This document shows, piece by piece, positions 1-12,616 of a DNA stretch of 64,000 nucleotides. Position 1 is the first letter of the stretch. Each line of letters opens with the position of its first letter. Both the position numbers and the translations under genes were made by a program. The notes beneath the pieces were generated by a model, which was not told where the DNA came from, searched no databases, and worked only from the letters and a program-made list of their open reading frames with translations. Origin of the DNA: Rhodanobacter thiooxydans (GTDB lineage Bacteria > Pseudomonadota > Gammaproteobacteria > Xanthomonadales > Rhodanobacteraceae); assembly GCF_021545845.1 (NCBI RefSeq), contig NZ_CP088923.1, forward strand, positions 744,001-808,000. Direction: 5' to 3'.

Positions 1-486
1 TACCTGCTGCTGGATCGTCGCCACCCGCTGTACTTCGCCGACCGCACGCCCGACCCGGCGCGGCGCCGGCGCATCGACGCGCTGCTGGCGCAGGCCGGCA
101 TCGATCAGGCGGCGGGCCTGGTCGACTACGCCAGCCTGTACGCCGGCGCCTCGCCGCTGGACGACGAGATCTTCACCTACTTGATCTCGGTGCCGGGGCT
201 GAGCTTCGACGTGCTCGAACGGGCCTGGCCGATCGTCGCCCACCTGCGCGGCGTGCGCGGCCCGGCGCTGTTCGAGCGGATGGTCGCCAACACGCGCACC
301 GGCATCGTGCATTTCCACGAGATTCCCGGCGAGGGCACGCTGGACCTGGCCGCCAGTTTCCGGGCGCTGAACGCGCACGGCTTCGACGGCTTCGGCTCGG
401 TCGAGCTCTATCACCACGTCGATGGCTGGCAGCAGGCGCTCGACCAAAGCTACCGCCACCTGGCCGCCATCGCGCAGCCGACATGA
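1..486 (+). CDS. TIM-barrel sugar isomerase/epimerase, C-terminal part (EboE-like?)
   Basis: Open from the window edge in frame 1 to TGA at 484-486, so only the last 161 residues are visible. The tail has the look of the AP-endonuclease-2/xylose-isomerase-like TIM-barrel family: a metal-site-like HFHEIPGEGTLD stretch followed by GFDGFGSVELYHH near the C-terminus, the usual last beta-strand of that fold. These enzymes isomerise or epimerise sugars or sugar phosphates using a divalent metal. It is the first visible gene of an operon with a LuxS-like enzyme and an EboD/EboC-like pair, so it could be the EboE-type member. That assignment is by context only; the N-terminal half is outside the window. 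Confidence 0.6.
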   Translation, partial: YLLLDRRHPLYFADRTPDPARRRRIDALLAQAGIDQAAGLVDYASLYAGASPLDDEIFTYLISVPGLSFDVLERAWPIVAHLRGVRGPALFERMVANTRTGIVHFHEIPGEGTLDLAASFRALNAHGFDGFGSVELYHHVDGWQQALDQSYRHLAAIAQPT

Positions 487-517: not shown

Positions 518-1000
518 ATGATCGACTTCGAGGCATTGGGCTGGCGCAGCGATACCGTCGGCGAACTGGACCACCGCCTGCTCAAGGCGCCCAGCGTCAA
601 GCTGCGCGGCGCCCGTGCGGGCGCCGCGGGCGACGTCGTCTACAGCATCGACCTGCGCCTGCGCCGGCCGAACGCCGACGCCTGCCTGTCCAGCACCGAG
701 CTGCATTCGATCGAGCACTTCCTGCTCGAAGGCTACGGCCGCCTGCTGCCACGGCATTTCATCGGCGTCGGCGTGATGGGTTGCCAGACCGGCTTCTACC
801 TCACCCTGCTCGGCGAAGGCCGCCGCGCGGTCGTCGAGGGCGCGCTTGAGGCCATCCTCGAAGGCGTGCTCGCGGCCGACGCGGTGCCGTATGCGCGCAT
901 CGACCAGTGCGGCCACTGGCGCCACCACGACCTGGCGCAGGCGCAGGCCGTGGCGCGCGAGGTACTGGCGCAACGCGCGGCGTGGCAGGACATCACATGA
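518..1000 (+). CDS. LuxS-like protein (S-ribosylhomocysteine lyase family)
   Basis: A 160-residue protein, the usual LuxS length (about 155-170). The LuxS signature residues are all present: HSIEH at 63-67 (the HxxEH zinc site and its Glu), MGCQTGFYL with the catalytic-type Cys at 89, and QCG with the third zinc ligand Cys at 131, followed by the HDLAQAQ helix. The N-terminal ELDHRLLKAPSVKL resembles the VDHxxMxAPAVR start of known LuxS. Authentic LuxS cleaves S-ribosylhomocysteine to homocysteine and the AI-2 precursor. The start ATG at 518 follows the upstream stop by 31 nt; the stop overlaps the next ATG (ATGA). Sitting in an ebo-like operon rather than with methionine-cycle genes, it may act on another sugar-derived substrate. 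The family call is strong; the substrate is unknown. Confidence 0.8.
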   Translation: MIDFEALGWRSDTVGELDHRLLKAPSVKLRGARAGAAGDVVYSIDLRLRRPNADACLSSTELHSIEHFLLEGYGRLLPRHFIGVGVMGCQTGFYLTLLGEGRRAVVEGALEAILEGVLAADAVPYARIDQCGHWRHHDLAQAQAVAREVLAQRAAWQDIT

Positions 1001-2148
1001 GCGCGGCGAAGGGCGCGCGCTGGCAGGTCAGCGCCACGCGTCGGATCGAATACGACCTGCTCAACGTGGCCGACGTGTTCGATCCGCGCAGCGATGCGCT
1101 GCTGTCGATGGGCCGCGTGCGGGACGGGCGCCGCTTCGTGGTGGTCGACGAATGCGTGCACGCGCATCACGGCGCACGCATCCGCGCCTATTTCGCCCAG
1201 CACCAGGTCGATGCGCGCATCATCACCCTGCCGGGCGGCGAGGGCGGCAAGACGCTGGACGCGTGGCTTTCGGTACTGCGCGAGCTGGACGGCTTCCCGA
1301 TCCATCGCCGCGACGAGCCGGTGATCGCCATCGGCGGCGGCGTGCTGACCGACGTAGTCGGCTACGCGGCGGCCAGCTACCGGCGCGGCGTGCCGCACAT
1401 CAAGGTGCCGACCACGCTGATGGGCTACGTCGACGCGGCGGTCGGGATCAAGACCGGGATCAACTTCAACGACCACAAGAACCGTCTGGGCAACTTCGAG
1501 CCGCCGCGCCGGGTACTGCTGGACCGCAGCCTGCTGCGCAGCCTGCCGCCGCGACACCTGCGCAACGGCGTGTGCGAGATCGTCAAGCTGGCGGTGATCC
1601 GTGACGCCACGCTGTTCGGTCTGCTGGAACGCCACGGTGCCGCATCGCTGGCGAGCGCCTTCCAGGATGCGCGCGGCGGGGAGATCCTCGACCGCGCCAT
1701 CGGCGGCATGCTGGAAGAGCTGGCGCCGAACCTGCACGAGGAAGAGCTGGCGCGCAAGGTCGACTTCGGCCATACCTTCAGCTACGGCCTGGAAACCCGC
1801 TACGGGGACGACCTGCTGCACGGCGAGGCGGTGCTGCTGGACATCCTGGTGTCGACCGCGATCGCGCTTCGGCGCGGCCTGCTCGACGCGGCCGCGGCCG
1901 GCCGCATCTTCGCCCTGGTCGAGCGCCTGCAGCTCGCCCCCGAGCTCGCCCTGCTCGACGCCGAACTGATGTGGCAGTCGCTGCTCGATCGCGTCGAGCA
2001 CCGCAACGGCCTGCAGCGCGTGCCGTTGCCTGCGGGGCTGGGCGAGTGCGTGTTCGTCAACGACATCGCGCGCGCGGAAATCGAAGCCTCCATCCATACC
2101 TTGAACCAGCGGACCACGAGCAGCCATGACCGAATCGCCGAATGTTGA
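997..2148 (+). CDS. eboD: Sugar-phosphate cyclase, EboD / 2-epi-5-epi-valiolone synthase type
   Basis: 383 residues of the 3-dehydroquinate synthase fold. The NAD-binding IGGGVLTDVVG is at 112-122, followed by KVPTTLMGYVDAAVGIKTG and the RNGVCEIVKLAVIRD segment. HKNRLGNF and LRNG in place of the aroB forms look more like sedoheptulose-7-phosphate cyclases (EEVS) or EboD than like housekeeping dehydroquinate synthase. Such enzymes cyclise a phosphorylated ketose to a cyclitol using NAD and a divalent metal. The ATG overlaps the LuxS-like stop by 4 nt, and its 3' end overlaps ubiG by 23 nt, so expression is likely coupled. The exact substrate cannot be read from sequence alone. Confidence 0.75.
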   Translation: MSAAKGARWQVSATRRIEYDLLNVADVFDPRSDALLSMGRVRDGRRFVVVDECVHAHHGARIRAYFAQHQVDARIITLPGGEGGKTLDAWLSVLRELDGFPIHRRDEPVIAIGGGVLTDVVGYAAASYRRGVPHIKVPTTLMGYVDAAVGIKTGINFNDHKNRLGNFEPPRRVLLDRSLLRSLPPRHLRNGVCEIVKLAVIRDATLFGLLERHGAASLASAFQDARGGEILDRAIGGMLEELAPNLHEEELARKVDFGHTFSYGLETRYGDDLLHGEAVLLDILVSTAIALRRGLLDAAAAGRIFALVERLQLAPELALLDAELMWQSLLDRVEHRNGLQRVPLPAGLGECVFVNDIARAEIEASIHTLNQRTTSSHDRIAEC

Positions 2149-2836
2149 CGCCGGGGAAATCGCCCACTTCAACCGCATCGCCCAGCTGTGGTGGGACCCG
2201 CACGGCAAGATGGGGCAACTGCACGCGATCAACGACCTGCGCCTGCGCTTCATCACCGACCGCATCGGCGCACCGGCGCCGCGTATCGTCGACGTGGGCT
2301 GCGGCGGCGGCATCCTGGCCGAGGCGCTGGCCAAAACCGGCGCACGGGTGACCGGCATCGACCTGTCGCGGCTGTCGCTGGACATCGCCCGCCAGCATGC
2401 CGAACGCGGCGGGCTGGCCATCGACTACCGCGAGCTCAATGCGGAGATCCTCGCGCGCGATGAGCCCGGCAGCTTCGACGCCGTCACCTGCATGGAGATG
2501 CTCGAGCACGTGCCGCATCCGGAGCAGGTCATCGCCGCCTGCGCGGCCCTGCTCAAGCCGGGCGGCGTGGCGTTCTTCTCCACCATCAACCGCACGTTCA
2601 AGGCGTTCGCCTTCGCCATCGTGGCCGGCGAGTACATTCTCGGCCTGCTGCCGCGCGGCACGCACCACTACAGCAAGCTGATCCGGCCGGTGGAGATGCG
2701 CGCGTGGGCCGGTGCGGCGGGGCTCGAATTCAGGGCGGTGGACAGCCTCATGTACAACCCGCTGACGCGCCGCTTCCGGGTCGCGCCGAACCGCGAAGAC
2801 ATCAACTACATGGCCTGCTTCGTCAGGAAGGGCTGA
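2126..2836 (+). CDS. ubiG: UbiG-type SAM-dependent O-methyltransferase
   Basis: 236 residues closely resembling UbiG, the enzyme that makes both O-methylations of ubiquinone. It has the N-terminal FNRIAQLWWDPHGKM block, the SAM-binding motif VDVGCGGGILAEAL at 55-68, CMEMLEHVPHPE, and the UbiG-typical AEYILGLLPRGTHHY-like and MYNPLT segments. The ATG lies inside the end of the cyclase gene. It could be the cell's true ubiG captured in this operon, or a paralog that methylates the cluster's own product; the prenyltransferase next door fits either view. Finding a second ubiG elsewhere in the genome would favour the second. Confidence 0.85.
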   Translation: MTESPNVDAGEIAHFNRIAQLWWDPHGKMGQLHAINDLRLRFITDRIGAPAPRIVDVGCGGGILAEALAKTGARVTGIDLSRLSLDIARQHAERGGLAIDYRELNAEILARDEPGSFDAVTCMEMLEHVPHPEQVIAACAALLKPGGVAFFSTINRTFKAFAFAIVAGEYILGLLPRGTHHYSKLIRPVEMRAWAGAAGLEFRAVDSLMYNPLTRRFRVAPNREDINYMACFVRKG

Positions 2837-2841
2837 AACCC

Positions 2842-3735
2842 ATGCGGCGCTTTCTCGCCTTGTCGCGCTCCTTCCACGGCGTGCTCGACATCGCCATGCC
2901 CGGCTTCGTCGCGCTGCTGTGGCTGGGGCACTTCCCCTCGTGGCGGGTGCTGGCGCTGTCCCTGGCGACCGCGCTGGCCGGCTATACGGCCATCTACGCA
3001 CTGAACGACCTGATCGGGGTGAAGGACGACAAGGAAAAGGTCGCCGGCGGGATCACCCCGGGCTACGCGGTCGAGGCTTCCGCCATGCGCTACCCGCTGG
3101 CGCAGAACCTGATCAGCATGAAGGGCGCGCTGGCGTGGTTCGGCTGCTGGTTCGCGCTGGCCGTGCTCGGCACCTGGCTGCTGAACCCGCGGATCCTCGT
3201 CATCGTGTTCGCCGCCGCGGCGCTGGAAGTGGTCTACGTCAAGCTGCTCAAGGTCACCTGGTGGCGCACCGTGGTCAGCGGCCTGGTCAAGTCGGCCGGG
3301 CCGATCGCCGCGGTGTTCGCGGTCATTCCCGAGCCGTCGTGGTCTGGGCTGCTGGGTTTGCTGGCGTGGCTGATGCTGTGGGAGATCGGCGGGCAGAACA
3401 TTCCGGCCGACTGGAACGACATCGAAGAGGACCGCCGCATCGGCGCGCGCACCATTCCGCTGGTGTTCGACCTGCGCACGGCGGGCGTGCTGGTGGTGGT
3501 CTGCCTGGGCCTGGCCGTGCTCGCCAGTGCGCTGCTGCCGCGTCTGTCGCCGCTCGATGGCGGCTGGCCGTTCCAGTTGGCCATCGTCGCCGCCGGCGCC
3601 GGCCTGCTGCTGCTGCCGGCGATCCGCCTCGCGCGCACGCTGGACGGCCGCCAGGCGGCGCGCCTGTTCGACCGCGCCAGCCTGTATCCGCTGGCGCTGC
3701 TGGCGATCGTCACGGTGTTCGTGTTGATCCGCTGA
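2842..3735 (+). CDS. eboC: UbiA-family prenyltransferase, EboC-like
   Basis: A 297-residue polytopic membrane protein starting 6 nt after the ubiG stop. It has the two Asp-rich sites of the UbiA superfamily: NDLIGVKDDKE at 55-65 (first, degenerate) and DWNDIEEDRRIGARTIPL from 190 (second), separated by several hydrophobic helices. UbiA-type enzymes join a polyprenyl diphosphate to an aromatic or other acceptor at the inner membrane. Next to an EboD-like cyclase this is best read as the EboC-type member. In cyanobacteria ebo genes have been tied to export of the scytonemin precursor and in Pseudomonas (edb) to nematode repellence; the reaction here is unknown. Confidence 0.75.
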   Translation: MRRFLALSRSFHGVLDIAMPGFVALLWLGHFPSWRVLALSLATALAGYTAIYALNDLIGVKDDKEKVAGGITPGYAVEASAMRYPLAQNLISMKGALAWFGCWFALAVLGTWLLNPRILVIVFAAAALEVVYVKLLKVTWWRTVVSGLVKSAGPIAAVFAVIPEPSWSGLLGLLAWLMLWEIGGQNIPADWNDIEEDRRIGARTIPLVFDLRTAGVLVVVCLGLAVLASALLPRLSPLDGGWPFQLAIVAAGAGLLLLPAIRLARTLDGRQAARLFDRASLYPLALLAIVTVFVLIR

Positions 3736-3844
3736 GGCGGCACGGCGGCTTCGGCAGCGAACTGCCGACGCGCTTTACTTCTCAAGACAACTGCATGGCG
3801 CAACTGTCGTAGGTTTTTTGTCCGGCCGCAGTGACCCGGGTGGT

Positions 3845-4124
3845 TCAAGAGCAAGAGCTTTCGTCCTCCTGCGGAGGCCGAGGTACTTCTCTTTTGCTTG
3901 TCCAAAAGAGAAGTACCCAAGAGAAAACGACACCCCGCTTCCGCGCCTTGCGGACATCCTGTCCGCAAGGTCCGCGTTCGGGCTCCGGGGTTTGTCGACA
4001 GGGCATCCTGCCCTGACGCCAAACTGGTCGGCATCCATGCCGACCACCCTGCGGGCTGATCCTCCACCCGCCCGCCGCTGCAGAGGGGCCCCGGTAGAGC
4101 AGCGCGCCATCCTGGCGCGCACTC
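3845..4124 (+). repeat. Composite multi-hairpin repeat, copy 1
   Basis: A run of short perfect palindromes, several with ATCC or ATCCA in the loop: CCTCCTGCGGAGG; a TTTTGCTTGTCCAAAAG box with flanking arms; GCGGACATCCTGTCCGC; AGGGCATCCTGCCCT; GTCGGCATCCATGCCGAC; GCGCGCCATCCTGGCGCGC. The same order occurs in reverse complement at 7019-8628. Two further hairpins follow at about 4126-4150 and 4171-4192 that are not in copy 2. There is no convincing ORF between the eboC stop (3735) and the ATG at 4314. It may be a REP/BIME-like cassette; a transcribed structured RNA cannot be excluded. Confidence 0.75.
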
Positions 4125-4313
4125 GGTGCGCGACCGCTGCGCGGTCGCGAAAGCCGTAAAACCAGAAGCGAAAGAGTCCCGCCGCAAGCGGGACTTTTCA
4201 ATGCGGCAAATGTCTCGGTTCGGCCAAAAGCGGACAACCGAGCGGTAAGGCTCGTCGGCGGCATAATCGCCCCGACTACAAGACCGCCTTCAGCGCGTCG
4301 TCAAGAGACCTTC

Positions 4314-6431
4314 ATGGATACAGCTGCGCCCAAGCCCAATCTCAACGAGTTGCGACAACTGATCGAAGACTTTGACCGGTTGCACGGCGGCAAGGACACC
4401 CCGGAGCAACTTCGCGCCATCGACATCACGCCCGAAGGCATGGGCACGTCCCAGTGCAGTCAGAAGATCCAGCAGCACTTAGAGGCCTTGTCGGCGCCGG
4501 ATTCCCGCGGAGTAAGAACCCACCTCGTCTCTCTTCGCACGCAGCTAATCCACGCCAGCCTGATCTTTGACACGCCACTCGATTGGCTATTCGACGTCAT
4601 CGACGGGTACATGTACTGCATGCCGGCCGCGACCGGACGCAAGACGGGTGCCGCGATCGACTGGCAGGCGCTGGCCGCGGCAATCTGCGTCAAAGCGCGC
4701 TTCGCGCACCCACGCGATGATCTGGAGCGACACTACCCACGCGAGTTCGGCGTCGGCAAGGCGGCCCGCCGACTGCGGGAGCGCGGATACGCTATAGAGC
4801 AGCACGGGGACCGGTTGGGTGTGTCGAACGCCGATGACGATCGGCTGGTCGCACGTATCGAAGAGCTGGTCCGTGCTTTGGGCGGGCTGAGCGTAGCCCG
4901 CAAGATATTCCAGACCGTGCAATCGACATACGACGCCCCGCTCGCGCGCTACTTGATCACGCGCAAGATTCACGTGGGTCGCCCGATGTCGCTGGACGTT
5001 CCGTGGGGCTACCTGCTGGCGTTGGCGGGCAAGCACCTGTATGAAAAGGCCCGCTCGACCGACCCGCAGGTTGCCTGGGACGAACTGGTCGCCCTGGCGA
5101 CAGACTATGCGGCCCTGCACGATGTGCAGGACTACTCGCCGCCGATCTTCGAATCCCTGACGACGGACGAGTTGCCTGACTCGCTCGCACGTCGGGCGCT
5201 GTATGACACGATTTATACCTTTCCCCAGCTCCGTCCCACGGACGTGGTCCGCATCCTACGGCCGTTGCTATACAAGATTCCGTCCGACAGACCCTACGGC
5301 GCCGGCTGGACCTTAAGCGACGTCTACGCGGTGATTGAGCGCATCTACCAGTGCATCGGCGACCGGTGCGGCCCGGTTACCTTAGACGTCGGTGACGTCA
5401 GCCGGTCGGTGCCAGGCGTAACCAGGGCGGTTGCCAAGGACATCATCCTCAGCGTCCTGTCCCATCCGCCGGGGGGTCCTAGCCGCCTGTTCTCCCGGCC
5501 CACGGGTCGAACGGCCAAGCAGTCCGACGGCGGACCGGATACGGGAAACAACCTGTACTTCAAACCGTTGCTGCCATTGAACGGCGGCAAGTTCGTCGTT
5601 CTTGATAAGTCCGTGGCTGGTGTCGCCTTCGTCGAGGCCGTCATTTCCGCGTTGCGCGATATCGAGAAGGGACAGTTCCAAAGCGAGATCGTCGGCAGGG
5701 GGTTGGAAAATCTTGTGCGGCATGAGTTGGCTGCCCACGGCATCACCACCTACACCGGGCAGTACGTCACCCAAGCGGGCATCGACGGCGAATGCGACCA
5801 GGTGATCGACGAAGCCGGGCATCTAGTGTTTCTTGAGTCCAAGGCCAAGCCCCTGACGCGAAACGCCAACGCCGGCAGTGACGTGGACGTCATTGTCTCG
5901 CTCGCGGCCAGTGCCATCGCTGCGCAAGAGCAAGCCATGGGCCATGAGGTGCAATTGCGGCGGGACAAGAAACTCCACCTGGCCGAATCCAACCACGACT
6001 TGACGTGGCAGGAACAGGACGTCGACCGTATCGCCGTAGCCTTGTTCGACTTTGGCGTTTTCCAGGACCGTACGGCACTAAGCAAGCTGCTTCAGCAGAT
6101 CCTTCCAGCGCGGTACAACGCGATCGACAGCGAGGCGCAGAAGCTGCACAAGAAGACGCTTAAGGATTTGAACTACAAGACGCTGCCAGCGTTGATCGAT
6201 CATTTGGGCTCGTGGAACGACTTGGGCCTCGAGAAGCGGAACCCGTTCTTCGCCTGCTGGTTCTTGAGTGCGCCGCAGCTGCTCGTCCTGCTTGATGGCG
6301 TGAGCGAGCCGACGGAATTCTTGTCTCGGCTTAGTTTTCTAAGAAGGGCGAGCTACCAGACCTACAACTTCTACGCTGAGGTCAAGCACGGCCTGACGCT
6401 GCGGGCGCAGATGGCCCAAACGTCGCACTAG
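4314..6431 (+). CDS. Orphan large protein with PD-(D/E)XK-like nuclease signature
   Basis: 705 residues, not recognised as a named family. The N-terminal two thirds look mostly helical and soluble with no signal peptide or membrane segment. The C-terminal third has a pattern typical of restriction-endonuclease-like folds: GRGLENLVRHEL, then an ECDQVID (acidic Asp near residue 494), then LVFLESKAK (ExK near 508-510), and a helix with SAIAAQEQ. Codon use is visibly less GC-rich than in its neighbours. It stands alone between two inverted copies of a hairpin repeat and next to an IS4 element, which suggests horizontal acquisition. A defence or DNA-processing role is an inference only. The start ATG lacks a strong Shine-Dalgarno. 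Confidence 0.7.
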   Translation: MDTAAPKPNLNELRQLIEDFDRLHGGKDTPEQLRAIDITPEGMGTSQCSQKIQQHLEALSAPDSRGVRTHLVSLRTQLIHASLIFDTPLDWLFDVIDGYMYCMPAATGRKTGAAIDWQALAAAICVKARFAHPRDDLERHYPREFGVGKAARRLRERGYAIEQHGDRLGVSNADDDRLVARIEELVRALGGLSVARKIFQTVQSTYDAPLARYLITRKIHVGRPMSLDVPWGYLLALAGKHLYEKARSTDPQVAWDELVALATDYAALHDVQDYSPPIFESLTTDELPDSLARRALYDTIYTFPQLRPTDVVRILRPLLYKIPSDRPYGAGWTLSDVYAVIERIYQCIGDRCGPVTLDVGDVSRSVPGVTRAVAKDIILSVLSHPPGGPSRLFSRPTGRTAKQSDGGPDTGNNLYFKPLLPLNGGKFVVLDKSVAGVAFVEAVISALRDIEKGQFQSEIVGRGLENLVRHELAAHGITTYTGQYVTQAGIDGECDQVIDEAGHLVFLESKAKPLTRNANAGSDVDVIVSLAASAIAAQEQAMGHEVQLRRDKKLHLAESNHDLTWQEQDVDRIAVALFDFGVFQDRTALSKLLQQILPARYNAIDSEAQKLHKKTLKDLNYKTLPALIDHLGSWNDLGLEKRNPFFACWFLSAPQLLVLLDGVSEPTEFLSRLSFLRRASYQTYNFYAEVKHGLTLRAQMAQTSH

Positions 6432-7018
6432 CGCGCTCAATGGGGTAGGAAATCCTGAGGCCCGGTTGCGTCACCGCGGTGCAGGCAACGTGGTTGGCCA
6501 GTGGGATCGTGGTGCTGCAGGGGGAGACAGGTGCTCCGATTCACCGCCGCTTCCCTCCACCCCACGTGGCACTCTTGCACGCGGTGGCCGCTTCCGTGGC
6601 ATTCCGAGGGACCTCGGCTTGGTTTGTGGGGGCGTCGCTAGTCGCACTTCTCGAAACCTGAGGCGCGCGGAAGCAGGCCTCCACGGCTTGAGTCGCACTA
6701 GCGTGGCTGGTTGGCAAGAGGCCACGAATCGTGCCAATTCCGGGCGACGCAGATCGCACGCAAGCTCGAAAGCACCGGCGCCCCCTTTCCGACTTAGGAG
6801 TAACTTACGCCGCCGATCAGAGCCGCAGCAGTCCGCTTTGGGTCGAGAGCAGACCCTTTGGGCCGATCAAGTCAGTACTGTGGCGGATCTCCTGCAAGCC
6901 GGTCCTGAGGTCGACTCAAGGTGCGCAGCGCGAGACGTTTTTCGCACGCGTGACGTGAAGGGCGGCAACTGCCAACTGCATCAAAGGCGCAGGTGGCGAG
7001 GTTTTGGATCTTCTGAAG
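6432..7018. other. Intergenic stretch without a supportable gene
   Basis: Between the orphan nuclease-like gene and the second hairpin repeat. I see no ORF with coding-like sequence; a 60-codon frame at 6479-6661 starts with GTG and has no recognisable start context or homology. A GTCCGCTTTGGGTCGAGAGC hairpin-like piece near 6832 resembles scattered intergenic debris. Probably decayed sequence left by the insertion history of this segment. Confidence 0.4.
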
Positions 7019-7247
7019 AGTGCGGGCCACGATGGCCCGCTGCTCTACCCGGGGCCCCTCTGCAGCGGCGGGCGGGTGGAGGATCAGCCCGCAGGGTGGT
7101 CGGCATGGATGCCGACCAGTTTGGCGTCAGGGCAGGATGCCCTGTCGACAAACCCCGGAGCCCGAACGCGGACCTTGCGGACAGGATGTCCGCAAGGCGC
7201 GGAAGCGGGGGGGCGTTTTCTCTTGGGTACTTCTCTTTTGGACAAGC
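7019..7247 (-). repeat. Composite multi-hairpin repeat, copy 2, left part
   Basis: Reverse complement of 3845-4124, with the same palindromes in reverse order (GTCGGCATGGATGCCGAC, AGGGCAGGATGCCCT, GCGGACAGGATGTCCGC). It is interrupted at 7247 by the IS4-family element; the rest is at 8578-8628. GGACAAGC at 7240-7247 is the left copy of the target-site duplication. Confidence 0.8.
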
Positions 7248-8569
7248 CAGTACTGTCCGGTTAATCCGGAAATAGAATCAGTTGGTTAGCGTCGTCGTCG
7301 GCAGAAAGCTGTGGTTCCTGCCGCCGCAAGGCGCATTCCAGCGGGGTTTGCTCGAACAACGTCACACTCAGAATCTGTAGAAGTTCATAGAGTGAAGTCG
7401 TCAGCTGGAGACGCTTGCGCACGATGGCGATCAGCACGTAGACGGCGACGGCGATCCAGACCTGCGTCTTCACTGCGTTGGGCGAGGTGCCGAAGAACGC
7501 CTTGATGCGCAGGTGCTGCTTGATCCATTTGAAGAAAATTTCGATCTGCCAACGGTGGCGATACAGGGCACTGATGGTCGCCGCAGGAAGCACAAAGTGA
7601 TTGGTCAGCAAGACGATGGACTGACCGCTGTCGGTGTCACGCACGCGTACACGGCGTAGCGGGCCAGGGTATTTCTTGCGGACGACGTCCCGTGTCAACA
7701 CGACGGTCTGATCGCAACCGATGAGCGTGCGATCAGACACCGGATGGGAGTAGCGTCGCCGCACTCGGAGGTTCTTCTTGGTGCGCATCAGGAAGAAGGA
7801 ACCTTCGCAGTGGAATCGATAGAGCCGCTCGAAATCGAGATAGGCGCGGTCCATCAGATAGATCGCGCCAGGTTCAGGCACGAGCTCGTCGAGCATGTGG
7901 ACATCGTGCTGGCGGGACTCGGAAAAGCTGATGACCGTAGGGATTGCGCCGCGAATGTCGAGCAGCGTATGTACCTTCAATCCACCGCGGCCGGGATGCA
8001 TCGCCCGCGCCCACGGGAACACCGACAGGCACAACTCGATCGTGGTGGAGTCGAGCGCATAGGCAGTGTGTGCCAATTCGACGTCGAGCGGTTCGTTGAC
8101 GTAGAGACGGCGCGCCGTGGCGATCAGGGTTTGCGCGAACTCGGCATAGATGCGCCAGTCACGTTGTTCATTGGCATCGGCCAGTGTGCTGCGTGCTACA
8201 TGCCCACGAATGCCCAAGTGATAGAGCTTGGCCTGATGAGCGCGCAAACAGATCTCGATATCGCGCAGGCTTTCGCGTCCGGTGAGTTGAGCAAAGGCCA
8301 TACACAGGAACTGATCGAGGCACGCGAATCGCTTCACATAACGATTGCCATCGAACTTGGCAACGAGGCGACGAAACGTATGCATCGGCAGATGCTGCAT
8401 GAGCTGCGTAAACACAAAGCGCCCTTCATGCATGACGACGTCCTCCGAGGTGACGTCGTCCAGCCTGAGGCAAACCGGGTTGAAATCGCTAACACCCGGA
8501 AAGCGTCGGTTACTGCCCTCAGATCAACCGTTTACCAAGCTCCGCGTGCGCTTTCCCCGGACAGTACTG
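7248..8569 (-). mobile_element. Intact IS4-family insertion sequence (1322 bp)
   Basis: The ends are perfect 13-bp inverted repeats, CAGTACTGTCCGG at 7248-7260 and its complement at 8557-8569. The element is flanked by an 8-bp direct repeat GGACAAGC (7240-7247 and 8570-8577). The uninterrupted target is seen in copy 1 of the hairpin repeat (its complement GCTTGTCC near 3897-3904), which proves the insertion boundaries. One transposase gene fills the element. The size, the 8-bp duplication and the YREK signature point to the IS4 family, possibly the ISPepr1 or IS4Sa subgroup. With intact ends and ORF it may still be active. Confidence 0.95.
7261..8433 (-). CDS. IS4-family DDE transposase
   Basis: 390 residues, full length. 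The protein has an N-terminal DUF4372-like segment (FTQLMQHLPMHTFRRLV), the DDE catalytic core with ALDSTTIELCLS and IYLMDRAYLDFERLY around the first two Asp residues, and the IS4 hallmark YRHRWQIEIFFKWIK, which fits Y-x2-R-x3-E-x6-K exactly. It cuts and pastes the element carrying it. The stop codon lies just inside the left inverted repeat. No frameshift or internal stop is visible. Confidence 0.95.
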   Translation of the reverse strand: MHEGRFVFTQLMQHLPMHTFRRLVAKFDGNRYVKRFACLDQFLCMAFAQLTGRESLRDIEICLRAHQAKLYHLGIRGHVARSTLADANEQRDWRIYAEFAQTLIATARRLYVNEPLDVELAHTAYALDSTTIELCLSVFPWARAMHPGRGGLKVHTLLDIRGAIPTVISFSESRQHDVHMLDELVPEPGAIYLMDRAYLDFERLYRFHCEGSFFLMRTKKNLRVRRRYSHPVSDRTLIGCDQTVVLTRDVVRKKYPGPLRRVRVRDTDSGQSIVLLTNHFVLPAATISALYRHRWQIEIFFKWIKQHLRIKAFFGTSPNAVKTQVWIAVAVYVLIAIVRKRLQLTTSLYELLQILSVTLFEQTPLECALRRQEPQLSADDDANQLILFPD

Positions 8570-8628
8570 GGACAAGCAAAAGAGAAGAACCTCGGCCTCC
8601 GCAGGAGGACGAAAGCTCTTGCTCTTGA
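8570..8628 (-). repeat. Composite multi-hairpin repeat, copy 2, right part
   Basis: Begins with the second GGACAAGC target duplication (8570-8577) and continues with the CCTCCGCAGGAGG palindrome and GCTCTTGCTCTTGA end that match the start of copy 1 (3845). Together with 7019-7247 it reconstitutes one complete inverted copy, with a few point differences (for example AAGAACC against AAGTACC). Confidence 0.85.
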
Positions 8629-8659
8629 TGCGTTGCGGCACTCAGCAGAAAGCCAGGGC

Positions 8660-8676
8660 GGCGGGCAGTGCCCGCC
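8660..8676. repeat. Hairpin downstream of cpdB
   Basis: GGCGGGCAGTGCCCGCC is a perfect 8-bp stem around one base, 18 nt past the cpdB stop on the minus strand. It belongs to the TAGGGCGGGCACTGCCCGCC type of dispersed hairpin. The minus strand has no T-run after it, so intrinsic termination is doubtful; it may protect the 3' end of the cpdB message. Confidence 0.45.
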
Positions 8677-8693
8677 CTACAAAAACGCATCGT

Positions 8694-10691
8694 TCAACGC
8701 GACAGGTCGATGGCATACGTCGCCGTGCCGTCACCGTGATCCTTCAACTGGCGGATGTTGTCGAGCCCGGCGGCGCGCGCCACATCCTGCTTGCCGCTGG
8801 CGCCGGTGAACACCACCGGGCCGCGGGTCTTCAGCGGGGCGAAGGTCCATGACATCGGTTCGAGGTCCTTCGCGCCGATCCGCTGCCTGCTCTCCAGCCA
8901 CTTCGCCAGTATCTGGCGGGTGCCGTCCGGCGCGGCCAGCACGATGTTGCTGCCGTCGAGGCTGGGGAAGTGGCCGCCGCCGCTGGCGCGGTAGTTGTTG
9001 GTGACCACGATGAACGGCTGGGTCGGCTCGATCGGCTTGCCCTGGAAGGTCAGCGTGGTGATGCGCTGGCCGGCCGGCTTGGAGACGTCGATGACGTAGT
9101 GGATGCCGCCCTGGATCTGGTCGAAGTTGTAGCCGGTGAAGCGGCTGTTGATCAGCGCCTGCTCGCCGCTTTTCGCCGGGTCGATGCGGTTGAAGCGCTT
9201 GGCGGATTCTTCCAGCCACGCCTTCACTCCCGCGCCGTCGGTTTTCACCGCGGCCAGCGTGTTCGGGTAGAAGTACAGGTCGGCGGCGCTGCGCATGGTG
9301 AGCGGGCCGGGGGCGACGTCGGTGTAGTCGTCGGGGCCGCCAAAGCCGGTGCGGAAGGCGGCGGCGGCGCCCAGCACCGGCAGATTCGCCAGCTCGGGGT
9401 GCGTGCGCGGCAGTTCGCGGCGCACGTAGTCGATCTGCGCGGCGTTGACCGGCGCCAGCGCGGTCATGTTGCCCTCGTCGGCGAAGTAGCTGCTCAGGCG
9501 CAGCGCGCTTTCGCCGATCGGCGTGTTGACATAGGCGATGGTCGCCTCGTGCGCCTGCCGCACCAGCGGCGCGATCGCGGGGTCGGCCGGCACGCAATCG
9601 TGCTTCGTCTTGCAGATCGGGCGCACCTCGCTGTGGGTGTTGTCCAGGTCGACCACCCAGCGGCCGCCCTTGCGGTTCAGCACCAGCTGGATCACGCCGA
9701 GGTCCTTGCCGAAGAAACCGCCCATCACCGCGGGTACGTTGCGCACGAAACCGAGCCGTGCGTCGACGTCCTTCATGCCGGCGTAGTACGGGCCGGGGAA
9801 TTCCGTGTGCGAGTGGCCGAGCAGCAGCGCGTCGATGCCGGGTACGCCGGCCAGATACCAGCCGGCGTTTTCCATGTCCGGGGTGTACGGCGCGGTGTTC
9901 AGGCCGCCGTGCAGGATCGCCACCACCAGGTCCGGGTGCTGCGCCTGCAGCTCGGGCAGGTACTTTCGCGCGGCCTCGACCACGCCGCTGACGGTGACCT
10001 TGCCGGCCAACTTCTGCTTGTCCCAGTCCATGATCGGCGGCGGGGTGAAGCCGATGATGCCGACTTTCAGCGGCACCTTGATCTTGCTGCCGTCGGGCGT
10101 GTAGGCCTCGATCTGCCGGGTGACCACCGTCCACGGCTGGAAGATCGGCTTGCCGTCGCGCGCGCTGTACACGTTGGCCAGCACCAGCGGGAAGCGCGGG
10201 CCGGCGCAACGGTCGTGGTGGCCGCCGTCCACGTTCATCGGCGTGCCGGTGACCTGCGACAGGAAGCGCAGGCCGTAGTTGAACTCGTGGTTGCCGGCGG
10301 TGCCGCCGTCGTAGCCCATCGCGTCCATCGCCTGGTAGATGGCCAGCTCCTGGTCGCAGGCGACCGGCTTCACCAACGCCTGGTAGTCCGCCAGCACGCT
10401 GCCCTGGATGGTGTCGCCGCTGTCGAACAGGAAGGTGTTGGGAAACTCGGTGCGGGCGCGGCGGATCAGCGTGGCGGTGCGCTCGTAGCCTAGCGAGGGG
10501 TCCGGCTTCAGCTTGTAGTAGTCGTAGCTGAGCACGTTCGCGTGCACGTCGGTGGTTTCCAGGATCGCCACGCTCGCGCGGGCGCCGTCGGGCGTCTTGC
10601 CGGCCGCCCAGGGCAGGCTGGAACAGCCGGCGAGCAGGGCGGCGCCGAGGACGAGCAGCGGGGTGGCGAGCGGCAACGGGCGAGGCGACAT
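8694..10691 (-). CDS. cpdB: 2',3'-cyclic-nucleotide 2'-phosphodiesterase / 3'-nucleotidase lipoprotein
   Basis: 665 residues. The N-terminus is a lipoprotein signal with the lipobox LLAGC (Cys23). The metallophosphoesterase motifs follow: ETTDVHAN at 45-52, DSGDTIQGSVLADY, GNHEFNYGL, ILHGG and LGHSHTEFPG. The C-terminal substrate domain ends with NNYRASGGGHFP and SWTF, as in CpdB. The enzyme removes phosphate from extracytoplasmic nucleotides, feeding phosphate and nucleosides to the cell. The start at 10691 was chosen because it gives the lipobox and follows the upstream frame's unlikely sequence. It is divergent from the LtaS-like gene, with a Pho-box-like site between them. Confidence 0.92.
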   Translation of the reverse strand: MSPRPLPLATPLLVLGAALLAGCSSLPWAAGKTPDGARASVAILETTDVHANVLSYDYYKLKPDPSLGYERTATLIRRARTEFPNTFLFDSGDTIQGSVLADYQALVKPVACDQELAIYQAMDAMGYDGGTAGNHEFNYGLRFLSQVTGTPMNVDGGHHDRCAGPRFPLVLANVYSARDGKPIFQPWTVVTRQIEAYTPDGSKIKVPLKVGIIGFTPPPIMDWDKQKLAGKVTVSGVVEAARKYLPELQAQHPDLVVAILHGGLNTAPYTPDMENAGWYLAGVPGIDALLLGHSHTEFPGPYYAGMKDVDARLGFVRNVPAVMGGFFGKDLGVIQLVLNRKGGRWVVDLDNTHSEVRPICKTKHDCVPADPAIAPLVRQAHEATIAYVNTPIGESALRLSSYFADEGNMTALAPVNAAQIDYVRRELPRTHPELANLPVLGAAAAFRTGFGGPDDYTDVAPGPLTMRSAADLYFYPNTLAAVKTDGAGVKAWLEESAKRFNRIDPAKSGEQALINSRFTGYNFDQIQGGIHYVIDVSKPAGQRITTLTFQGKPIEPTQPFIVVTNNYRASGGGHFPSLDGSNIVLAAPDGTRQILAKWLESRQRIGAKDLEPMSWTFAPLKTRGPVVFTGASGKQDVARAAGLDNIRQLKDHGDGTATYAIDLSR

Positions 10692-10860
10692 GGGAGTCCG
10701 TGGGAAAGGCGGGTTCGGATCGCGGAAATTAGCAGATCGGGGTGACCGGGTGCTTGCGCATTGCTCCGGTCGCGGCCCTGGCCCCGGCCACGCCGCCAAG
10801 CTCAACGCCCGTGGAACGGCGCGCCGGCGCCGCAGCGCGTGACACCTGCAAGACCGTAAG

Positions 10861-10878
10861 ATGTCACCAGGATGACAG
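10861..10878 (-). promoter_or_regulatory. Pho-box-like PhoB site between cpdB and the LtaS-like gene
   Basis: Read on the minus strand the site is CTGTCAT-CCTG-GTGACAT: two PhoB half-sites with the canonical 11-bp period, the first a perfect match. It lies 170 nt upstream of cpdB in the direction of that gene and 26 nt from the ATG of the divergent LtaS-like gene. The assignment is by consensus match and by the phosphoester genes around it. Confidence 0.5.
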
Positions 10879-10903
10879 CGGTCCCGCGGGGGGACTTCCA
10901 GCC

Positions 10904-12616
10904 ATGCGTCGAATCTCGTTGCACCCCACACGGGCAGTTGCGGTGGTGCTGTGCGCGCTGGTTTTCTTCGCCGCCTGCATCGCGCTCACGGCGTGGCAGG
11001 AGCCGTTGCCGCTGCAGCGCGGCTTCATCCTCGGGCTGATGCTGTGCACGTTCGGCGTGCTGCTGTTCGCGTTCGGCCGCTTTGGCATGGCGCTGCTGGT
11101 CGGCGGCGGGTTGTTCCTGCTGCTGAAGTCGGTGGCGGTGCTGAAGCTGCGCTATCTCGACTCGCAGCTGATGCCGTCGGACTTCATCTATTACGTGCAC
11201 AGCAGCCTGCTGGATACGCTGCGCCACTATCCGCACCTGTATACGGTGGGGCTCGTCTTGGGCGTGCTGCTGCCGCCGCTGTTGTATCTGGTATGGCGTT
11301 GGGACTGGCGGGTGCTGGAGCGGCCGCCGCCGCGGCGCGGCGCCGGCATGCGCCTCGGCGGTGCCGCGTTGAGCGCGCTGGCGCTGTGGCTGTGCATGCT
11401 GCCCGCCGGGCCGTTCGCGCAGGTGCACTCGCGCAACGCCTGGCAGAAGATGTCCGACGATGCGCAGCTGACCAACTTCTTCGTCAACCTGCACGACGCC
11501 GACGTGGAGCTGCCGGCGATGGCCGACGACGCGGTGGCCGAGCCGGACTGGGGCGCCACCGCCACCGGTGCGCCCGGCCGCATGCCGCCACCGTACCCGG
11601 ACATCGTGCAGGTGCTGGAAGAAAGTACGTTCGACCCGTCGGTCTACGACGCCTGCAGCGTGCCGCCGTGCCGGGCCGCGATGTTCCGTGCCGATGCGCG
11701 CACCCGCGCGCACGGCATGCTGCGCGTGCATACCTTCGGTGGCGGCACCTGGGTCAGCGAGTTCGCCGCGCTCACCGGCATGCCGCAGGACATCTTCGGC
11801 CCCGGCGGCATGTACGCGCCGTACGTGCTGGCGCCGAACGTGCACGATGCGCTGGCGCTGCAGCTGCGCCGGCTCGGCTACCTCACCATCGGCATCTACC
11901 CGACCAATGCCGACTTCATCAACGGCCGCAACGCGTACCAGGCCTACGGTTTCGACCACCTGTACGGCGCCGACGAGTTGGGCCTGGAGGAGTGGGAGGA
12001 GAGTGACGCGCAGATGTTCGCGGCCGCCAGGCGCATCTACGACAAGGTGAAGAAACCGGGGCAGCCGGTATTCCTGATGATCCTGACGCTGAACCAGCAC
12101 GGCCCGCACGACCACCAGCCGATGGCGAGGCTGCCGCGGCCGTACCGCAACCTGCTGCGCGGACTGCCGCCCGACACGGCGCTGAACTTCGACACCTATC
12201 TCGCGCGCCTGCATGCCTCCGACCTGGCCATGCGTGCGCTGGAGCACAGCTTCCTCGACCGCCCGCAGGCCACCGTGCTGCTGCACTTCGGCGACCACCA
12301 GCCGTCGTTCAACGGCCTGATCCGCGACCTGCCGCGCCGGCTGCCGCCCGCGCTGCGGCCCTACCGCGATTACCTCACCTACTACATGCTGAAAAGCAAC
12401 TTCGCCGGACCGCCATTGCCGCAGTACCCGCTGCTCGACATCGCGTTCCTGCCCAGCATGGTGCTACAGGCCGCCGGCGTACCCACCGACGCCTACTTCA
12501 CCGCGGCCATCGAGCTGCGCGAACGCTGCCACGGCCTGTACGACGACTGCGCCGTGCCGGGCCTGCTCGCGTCCTACCACGCCTGGACCATCGGCCGGCT
12601 GCACGTGTACGAGTAG
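10904..12616 (+). CDS. LtaS-like membrane sulfatase-fold enzyme (phosphoglycerol/phosphoethanolamine transferase type)
   Basis: 570 residues. About four to five N-terminal membrane helices (roughly residues 8-28, 38-60, 60-75, 100-120, 145-165) precede an extracytoplasmic alkaline-phosphatase-fold domain. The domain has DIVQVLEESTFDPSVY (metal Glu), HTFGGGTWVSEFAALTG, which is where LtaS-type enzymes carry the nucleophile Thr, NQHGPHDHQ, and HFGDHQPSF (metal Asp-His). Relatives move phosphoglycerol or phosphoethanolamine onto glycans or lipids. A Pho-box-like site lies 26 nt upstream, so it may take part in envelope remodelling during phosphate limitation. The acceptor is unknown. Confidence 0.75.
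   Translation: MRRISLHPTRAVAVVLCALVFFAACIALTAWQEPLPLQRGFILGLMLCTFGVLLFAFGRFGMALLVGGGLFLLLKSVAVLKLRYLDSQLMPSDFIYYVHSSLLDTLRHYPHLYTVGLVLGVLLPPLLYLVWRWDWRVLERPPPRRGAGMRLGGAALSALALWLCMLPAGPFAQVHSRNAWQKMSDDAQLTNFFVNLHDADVELPAMADDAVAEPDWGATATGAPGRMPPPYPDIVQVLEESTFDPSVYDACSVPPCRAAMFRADARTRAHGMLRVHTFGGGTWVSEFAALTGMPQDIFGPGGMYAPYVLAPNVHDALALQLRRLGYLTIGIYPTNADFINGRNAYQAYGFDHLYGADELGLEEWEESDAQMFAAARRIYDKVKKPGQPVFLMILTLNQHGPHDHQPMARLPRPYRNLLRGLPPDTALNFDTYLARLHASDLAMRALEHSFLDRPQATVLLHFGDHQPSFNGLIRDLPRRLPPALRPYRDYLTYYMLKSNFAGPPLPQYPLLDIAFLPSMVLQAAGVPTDAYFTAAIELRERCHGLYDDCAVPGLLASYHAWTIGRLHVYE

Follow-up and report, generated by a model that had tools for sequence, protein, structure and literature searches.

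A LuxS-like protein of Rhodanobacter thiooxydans without the S-ribosylhomocysteine site residues belongs to a conserved five-gene cassette, probably for a cyclitol-type pathway

The window, a 64,000-nucleotide stretch of the Rhodanobacter thiooxydans genome, encodes near its left edge a LuxS-like protein that keeps the metal and catalytic set of LuxS and has lost residues of the S-ribosylhomocysteine (SRH) site. Its gene is one of five in a compact cassette that recurs in distant bacteria. LuxS chemistry has probably been redirected here to a cyclitol-type pathway. We hold with high confidence that the protein is not an SRH lyase, and it very likely serves the pathway of its cassette. The LuxS family is generally credited with a single reaction, and finding a member is taken to predict AI-2 quorum sensing. 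A LuxS subfamily with the catalytic centre but without the substrate site, found in distant bacteria, would mean that this inference can fail.

The cassette consists of the following genes, with chosen start positions.

1..486 (3' part), + strand: gene 1, xylose-isomerase-like TIM barrel with a ketose 3-epimerase fold and a large insert
518..1000, + strand: gene 2, LuxS-like protein, 160 aa, metal and catalytic set intact, SRH-site residues lost
997..2148, + strand: gene 3, EEVS-type sugar phosphate cyclase, 383 aa (PF01761/PF24621)
2126..2836, + strand: gene 4, UbiG-type SAM-dependent O-methyltransferase, 236 aa (TIGR01983)
2842..3735, + strand: gene 5, UbiA-type membrane prenyltransferase, 297 aa (PF01040, 92.1 bits)

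Gene 1, a fifth member absent from the sequence-only reading, is cut by the window edge. The whole gene spans window positions -755 to 486 (413 aa) and lies directly upstream of the LuxS-like gene. The ATG at 518 was chosen as the start of the latter, the longest ORF in the same frame beginning at 422. The LuxS-like stop overlaps the chosen cyclase start by 4 bases (ATGA, 997-1000), as had been described for an EEVS-like cyclase gene; genes 3 and 4 overlap by 23 bases, and 5 bases separate genes 4 and 5. The UbiG-type and UbiA-type genes read downstream of the cyclase are likewise in place, and with the cyclase they form an adjoining gene set that does look like a cyclitol/meroterpenoid pathway.

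The 160-aa protein scores 100.6 bits on the Pfam LuxS model (PF02664; cut-off, 27), which places it within the LuxS fold. It is the sole PF02664 match in the 4.2-Mb genome, so that the search for another luxS returned none. Residues 63-67 read HSIEH, Cys89 lies within MGCQTGFY and Cys131 within QCG, confirming the ORF and motifs first recognized from the letters. In the B. subtilis numbering used for LuxS residues below, the metal ligands His54, His58, and Cys126 and the catalytic residues Glu57, Cys84, His11, and Arg39 are present in 45/45 rows of the LuxS-like family, as they are in all 78 canonical rows and in 38/38 fusions of a TIM barrel with LuxS. The predicted LuxS fold, with an intact metal site and catalytic residues, is thus shown by sequence and structure prediction. 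All 45 family rows also share an extended N-terminus with GW and GE.

At E ≤ 0.001, 974 proteins match the LuxS-like query, relatives of all kinds included. Among the 120 matches listed, close homologues are named from Rhodanobacter or Rhodanobacteraceae and others from Castellaniella and Burkholderiaceae. The dN/dS ratio of the gene lies between 0.12 and 0.36 in 8/8 pairwise comparisons with genus-mates, indicating purifying selection. Together with the 974 matches and a gene order kept in 22/23 loci (see below), these ratios show that the gene is not a product of chance.

Losses concentrate in residues around the substrate. Asp78 occurs in 78/78 canonical rows and in none of the 45 family rows; Ala61, invariant in the 78 canonical rows, is gone from all 45; and Ser6, again present in every canonical row, is absent from 45/45 family rows on an ungapped reading. 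Arg65 is found in 78/78 canonical rows and in 8 of the 45 family rows, with Gly in the window protein. Phe7 is lost throughout the family, and Lys35 in at least 42 of its 45 rows. Published work ties Ser6, Arg65, and Asp78 to SRH binding or activity, and the SRH-site roles used here follow the available text of these two papers and not a substrate complex examined here (PMC2656534, PMC4618692).

Ten NCBIfam SRH-lyase models match the protein, all below cut-off, the best at 110 of 208 bits. In a quick tree of the 45 family rows and 48 of the 78 canonical rows, the two groups form the two sides of one branch (SH-aLRT, 100); because the canonical set was fetched with motif patterns taken from the LuxS-like family, other LuxS are under-sampled in it. 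The comparison with true LuxS suggested from the sequence thus sets the protein outside the canonical rows sampled.

The genomic setting agrees with this. The window genome carries sahH (492 bits), as had been predicted for a xanthomonad, and no Pfs/MTAN, the nucleosidase that supplies SRH, above the TIGR01704 cut-off: its match to that model, 22 bits, falls in the DeoD gene. Its three PNP_UDP_1 proteins find their best models in S-methyl-5'-thioinosine phosphorylase, AMP nucleosidase, and DeoD. Across the genomes collected with a LuxS-like gene, sahH is present in 23/23, and TIGR01704 exceeds its cut-off in one (G520), with weaker matches in 11 more. In contrast to canonical LuxS, the LuxS-like gene shares an operon with genes for a cyclase and a TIM barrel, and its hosts carry sahH. 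The protein is therefore very probably not the house AI-2 enzyme, as the sequence-only reading had argued. Among the points against the explanation preferred below are the Arg65 kept in 8/45 family rows and 7/38 fusions, and the MTAN matches of G520 and the 11 further genomes.

The cyclase finds its best PDB sequence match in ValA (4p53; 331 bits over 369 residues), followed by 5tpr (248 bits) and 3zok (155 bits), both labelled dehydroquinate synthase in the search output; 5tpr we take to be a DDGS. Its Asp256 and His335 are invariant in 23/23 sequences and presumably correspond to ValA Asp281 and His360, marks of EEVS. A function as dehydroquinate synthase is unlikely, since the cyclase is nearer to ValA and the host has a second homologue elsewhere (G000:C1:1309541; 36% identical), presumably AroB. 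ValA, its best solved relative, was assayed on sedoheptulose 7-phosphate and works in the validamycin pathway, whereas the partners of the cassette cyclase are a prenyltransferase and a methyltransferase (available text of PMC4426668).

Gene 4 scores 252.6 bits against the TIGR01983 cut-off of 102.95, which assigns it to UbiG. Elsewhere in the window genome a second protein exceeds this cut-off (G000:C1:1672696). Such a second copy lies outside the cassette in each of the 9 genus genomes, whereas no UbiG apart from the cassette's exceeds the cut-off in any of the 13 genomes made up of L013 (a Chloroflexi MAG) and the phylum set of L014 (an Anaerolineales MAG). Gene 5 matches named UbiA subfamilies in NCBIfam far below cut-off in every case, and no PDB sequence matched it at E ≤ 1. 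The TIM barrel of gene 1 has a ketose 3-epimerase-type fold with the metal-ligand acids and His present.

The order TIM barrel, LuxS-like, cyclase, UbiG-type, UbiA-type on one strand is kept in 22/23 loci (the window's own, 8 genus-mates, L013, L014, and 11 others drawn from the L014 phylum). The 23rd, from Desulforadius tongensis (L015), has a fused TIM barrel and LuxS part plus the cyclase. Within the genus, the LuxS-like gene is present in 9/36 genomes, the window's own included, and in 0/24 genomes representing the order's other families. These same 9 of the 60 relatives, and no others, have a cyclase copy at 67% identity or higher; among the other 51, 48 have a cyclase match of 29-38%, presumably AroB, and 3 have none at E ≤ 1e-20. 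Among 398 genomes of the window's phylum, a search at E ≤ 1e-25 returned the window genome and a single 110-bit match, whose locus groups with canonical LuxS rows (can_L093). By comparison, 400 genomes of the L014 phylum gave 12 matches, the L014 genome included, all of at least 251 bits. In a motif-pattern search of contigs, 3 of the 80 loci listed belong to the LuxS-like family. For the six loci with flanks listed, the genus has no flanking gene in common with the L014 phylum set, nor does any sixth gene recur across groups; at the genus locus L117, none of the listed flanking genes is common to other genus loci. This pattern suggests that the cassette spreads horizontally as a unit. Carriage on plasmids was considered and discarded, as the 28 matching plasmid records are all below 60% identity; the 10 of these 28 listed are annotated as S-ribosylhomocysteine lyase or carry no annotation. 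As a sharply bounded five-gene pathway, the cassette is small enough to rebuild in a laboratory strain.

In Desulforadius, a 592-aa ORF (580 aa as public cluster P0241) consists of a TIM barrel followed by a LuxS-like part and adjoins the cyclase. Within the 20 kb examined at this locus, no match to the cassette UbiG or UbiA was found; prenylation and methylation are therefore not obligatory partners of the LuxS step. Both Pfam domains occur in 38 of the 120 listed matches to the fusion query (Desulforadius and 37 further proteins), including proteins named from Zooshikella and Legionellales. A search of 299 genomes around Desulforadius with the fusion query (E ≤ 1e-40) returned that genome only. 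The fusions look less diverged than the LuxS-like family: Arg20 is present in 35/38 and Tyr18 in 31/38, as in canonical LuxS, and the LuxS part of Desulforadius, at 145 bits, comes nearer to the 208-bit cut-off of the best-scoring SRH-lyase model but stays below it. Asp78 and Ala61 occur in none of the 38. The natural fusion of two neighbors argues that the TIM barrel and the LuxS part belong to one pathway, in which they likely handle successive intermediates. Seven unfused TIM-barrel homologues (P0243, P0245-P0249, and P0255) are 57-82% identical to the Desulforadius barrel.

The cassette probably builds a sugar-derived, prenylated compound. Ketol-isomerase activity of the LuxS-like protein on a sugar is plausible, and we favor, as rather probable, a neofunctionalized metal-dependent ketol isomerase that is perhaps also a dehydratase. 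Its pathway would start from sedoheptulose 7-phosphate and lead to a cyclitol or quinol that is prenylated and O-methylated. By its likeness to ValA, the cyclase would convert sedoheptulose 7-phosphate, with loss of phosphate, into 2-epi-5-epi-valiolone or a close C7 cyclitol ketone. The TIM barrel and the LuxS-like enzyme would then act in consecutive steps, epimerizing the product and shifting its carbonyl. For its part, the LuxS-like enzyme may use metal-bound enediols to shift the carbonyl from one ring position to the next and may eliminate a beta substituent, probably water in place of the homocysteine thiolate. Together, these two reactions would bring the ring closer to a polyhydroxylated enone or a phenol. 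UbiA would prenylate this ring and UbiG would O-methylate one of its hydroxyls. All of these steps are drawn from protein families, and the sequence does not determine their order; for action of the LuxS-like enzyme after the cyclase we put the chances at even. A precedent for a prenylated 2-epi-5-epi-valiolone-derived ring is BE-40644, in which a UbiA-family (farnesyl)transferase presumably prenylates an EEVS-derived C7 ring; the likeness is one of description, and the available text of the source mentions no LuxS-like enzyme (PMC5133447).

The main alternative, which we consider unlikely, is that the TIM barrel and the LuxS-like enzyme act before the cyclase. They would epimerize and isomerize an open-chain ketose phosphate and so hand the cyclase an unusual substrate, different from sedoheptulose 7-phosphate. 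The gene order (TIM barrel, LuxS, cyclase) fits this, as does the set found in Desulforadius, a TIM::LuxS fusion plus cyclase, and the modelled TIM barrel most resembles the ketose 3-epimerases, which epimerize acyclic ketoses. LuxS itself naturally acts on an open-chain sugar. However, among PDB entries the cyclase is closest to ValA, the enzyme assayed on sedoheptulose 7-phosphate, and that sugar is a common metabolite that needs no preparation.

The genes had been labelled ebo/edb-type in the sequence-only reading, a label that the analysis does not support. The association is understandable, as ebo clusters share with the cassette the classes of a UbiA prenyltransferase, a cyclase near EEVS/DDGS, and a xylose-isomerase-like TIM barrel (available text of PMC5133447). 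A variant ebo/edb cluster, in which the LuxS-like enzyme replaces a missing Ebo function, could draw on these same broad classes occurring together; nevertheless, we judge it improbable. At E ≤ 1, the EboE model NF035939 matched neither window gene 1 nor the Desulforadius barrel, and the L013 barrel reaches 15.8 bits against a cut-off of 250. By Pfam, none of the five genes encodes a TatD-type hydrolase domain (EboB) or a phosphodiesterase domain (EboF), and there is no short unassigned protein among them comparable to EboA or EboG. No EboC-named model appears among the NCBIfam matches of the UbiA-type protein, in a library that may not contain one. The cassette differs further in its LuxS-like and UbiG-type members; the words methyltransferase and UbiG are absent from the main text of one ebo paper (PMC5133447), and the word methyltransferase is absent from another (PMC6282210). 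Membership in an ebo cluster is thus not claimed, given the unmatched EboE model and the missing EboB- and EboF-type domains.

Slightly less credible again is a carbon-sulfur lyase acting on another thio-sugar, in a pathway that adds or removes sulfur: the thiol-eliminating catalytic set is unchanged in 45/45 family rows, but no sulfur-handling domain occurs among the five genes. An ordinary SRH lyase for SAH recycling or AI-2, whether it came into the operon by chance or serves the UbiG-type methyltransferase, is the least credible of all and is rejected, for although the LuxS fold and complete catalytic set speak for it, as do the several sources that name members S-ribosylhomocysteine lyase among the matches listed, the lost site residues (Ser6, Asp78, Ala61, and mostly Arg65), the scores below all ten matched NCBIfam cut-offs, the separation from the canonical rows sampled, the 22/23 genomes without MTAN over cut-off, the three PNP_UDP_1 proteins that best match other enzymes, and the sahH in every genome stand against it. 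Local SAH recycling for the UbiG-type enzyme in particular was rejected because of the lack of an MTAN over cut-off. The loss of substrate-holding residues in a conserved five-gene set indicates that the public name S-ribosylhomocysteine lyase is probably wrong for this family. A separate, possible naming problem concerns L030, whose record bears the title Bacillus subtilis strain DE0224. Its LuxS is clearly unlike the B. subtilis LuxS in the PDB, and a misnamed record or a mixed genome may be the reason.

Returning to the favored isomerase or dehydratase of a cyclitol-type pathway, a more specific and doubtful version is that the cassette is a compact sugar route to a ubiquinone-like prenylated methoxy-quinol, with the LuxS-like enzyme and the TIM barrel aromatizing a C7 cyclitol. 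If this were true, a quinone-type electron carrier or redox-active lipid would be made from sugar and not from chorismate, and the carrier would be common to distant bacteria. The context for such a route includes cytochromes c near most genus loci and nirS nearby in one published MAG. In our literature search, for which subscription papers and preprints were out of scope, the texts available included none that places a relative of LuxS in this kind of pathway. Table A1 of a 2022 paper on Chloroflexi nitrite reductases lists five neighbors of nirS in SURF MAG 42, entered as 'Xylose isomerase-like, LuxS, EEVS, UbiG, UbiA' (RJP53741-RJP53745), which match the cassette gene for gene and in order (PMC8756737). 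In the available text, they are given in the appendix as nirS neighbors and are not discussed as a unit; they lie beside a fused cytochrome-nirS gene (PMC8756737). There is a hint here that the cassette is linked with denitrifiers. The available text of a 2016 LuxS survey records no LuxS in Chloroflexi (PMC5029033).

Several features surround the cassette. Just upstream of it in the window genome, two ORFs with cytochrome c domains (6581-7699 and 7087-8982 of locus L002, approximately -3419 to -1018 in window coordinates) were noted, the second of which is kept in 7/8 genus-mate loci, the exception being L117. A redox link between these genes and the cassette product is possible. In L013, three genes resembling aroA, aroE, and aroC, recognized by eye, directly precede the cassette (965-4326). 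Downstream in the window, a 705-aa ORF at 4314-6431 (+ strand) matches no Pfam family at 1e-5 and lacks a counterpart in the other cassette loci compared. It is followed by a transposase with DUF4372 and DDE_Tnp_1 domains (7261-8433, - strand), approximately 3.5 kb downstream of the cassette, and by a protein with a 5'-nucleotidase C-terminal domain (8694-10931, - strand).
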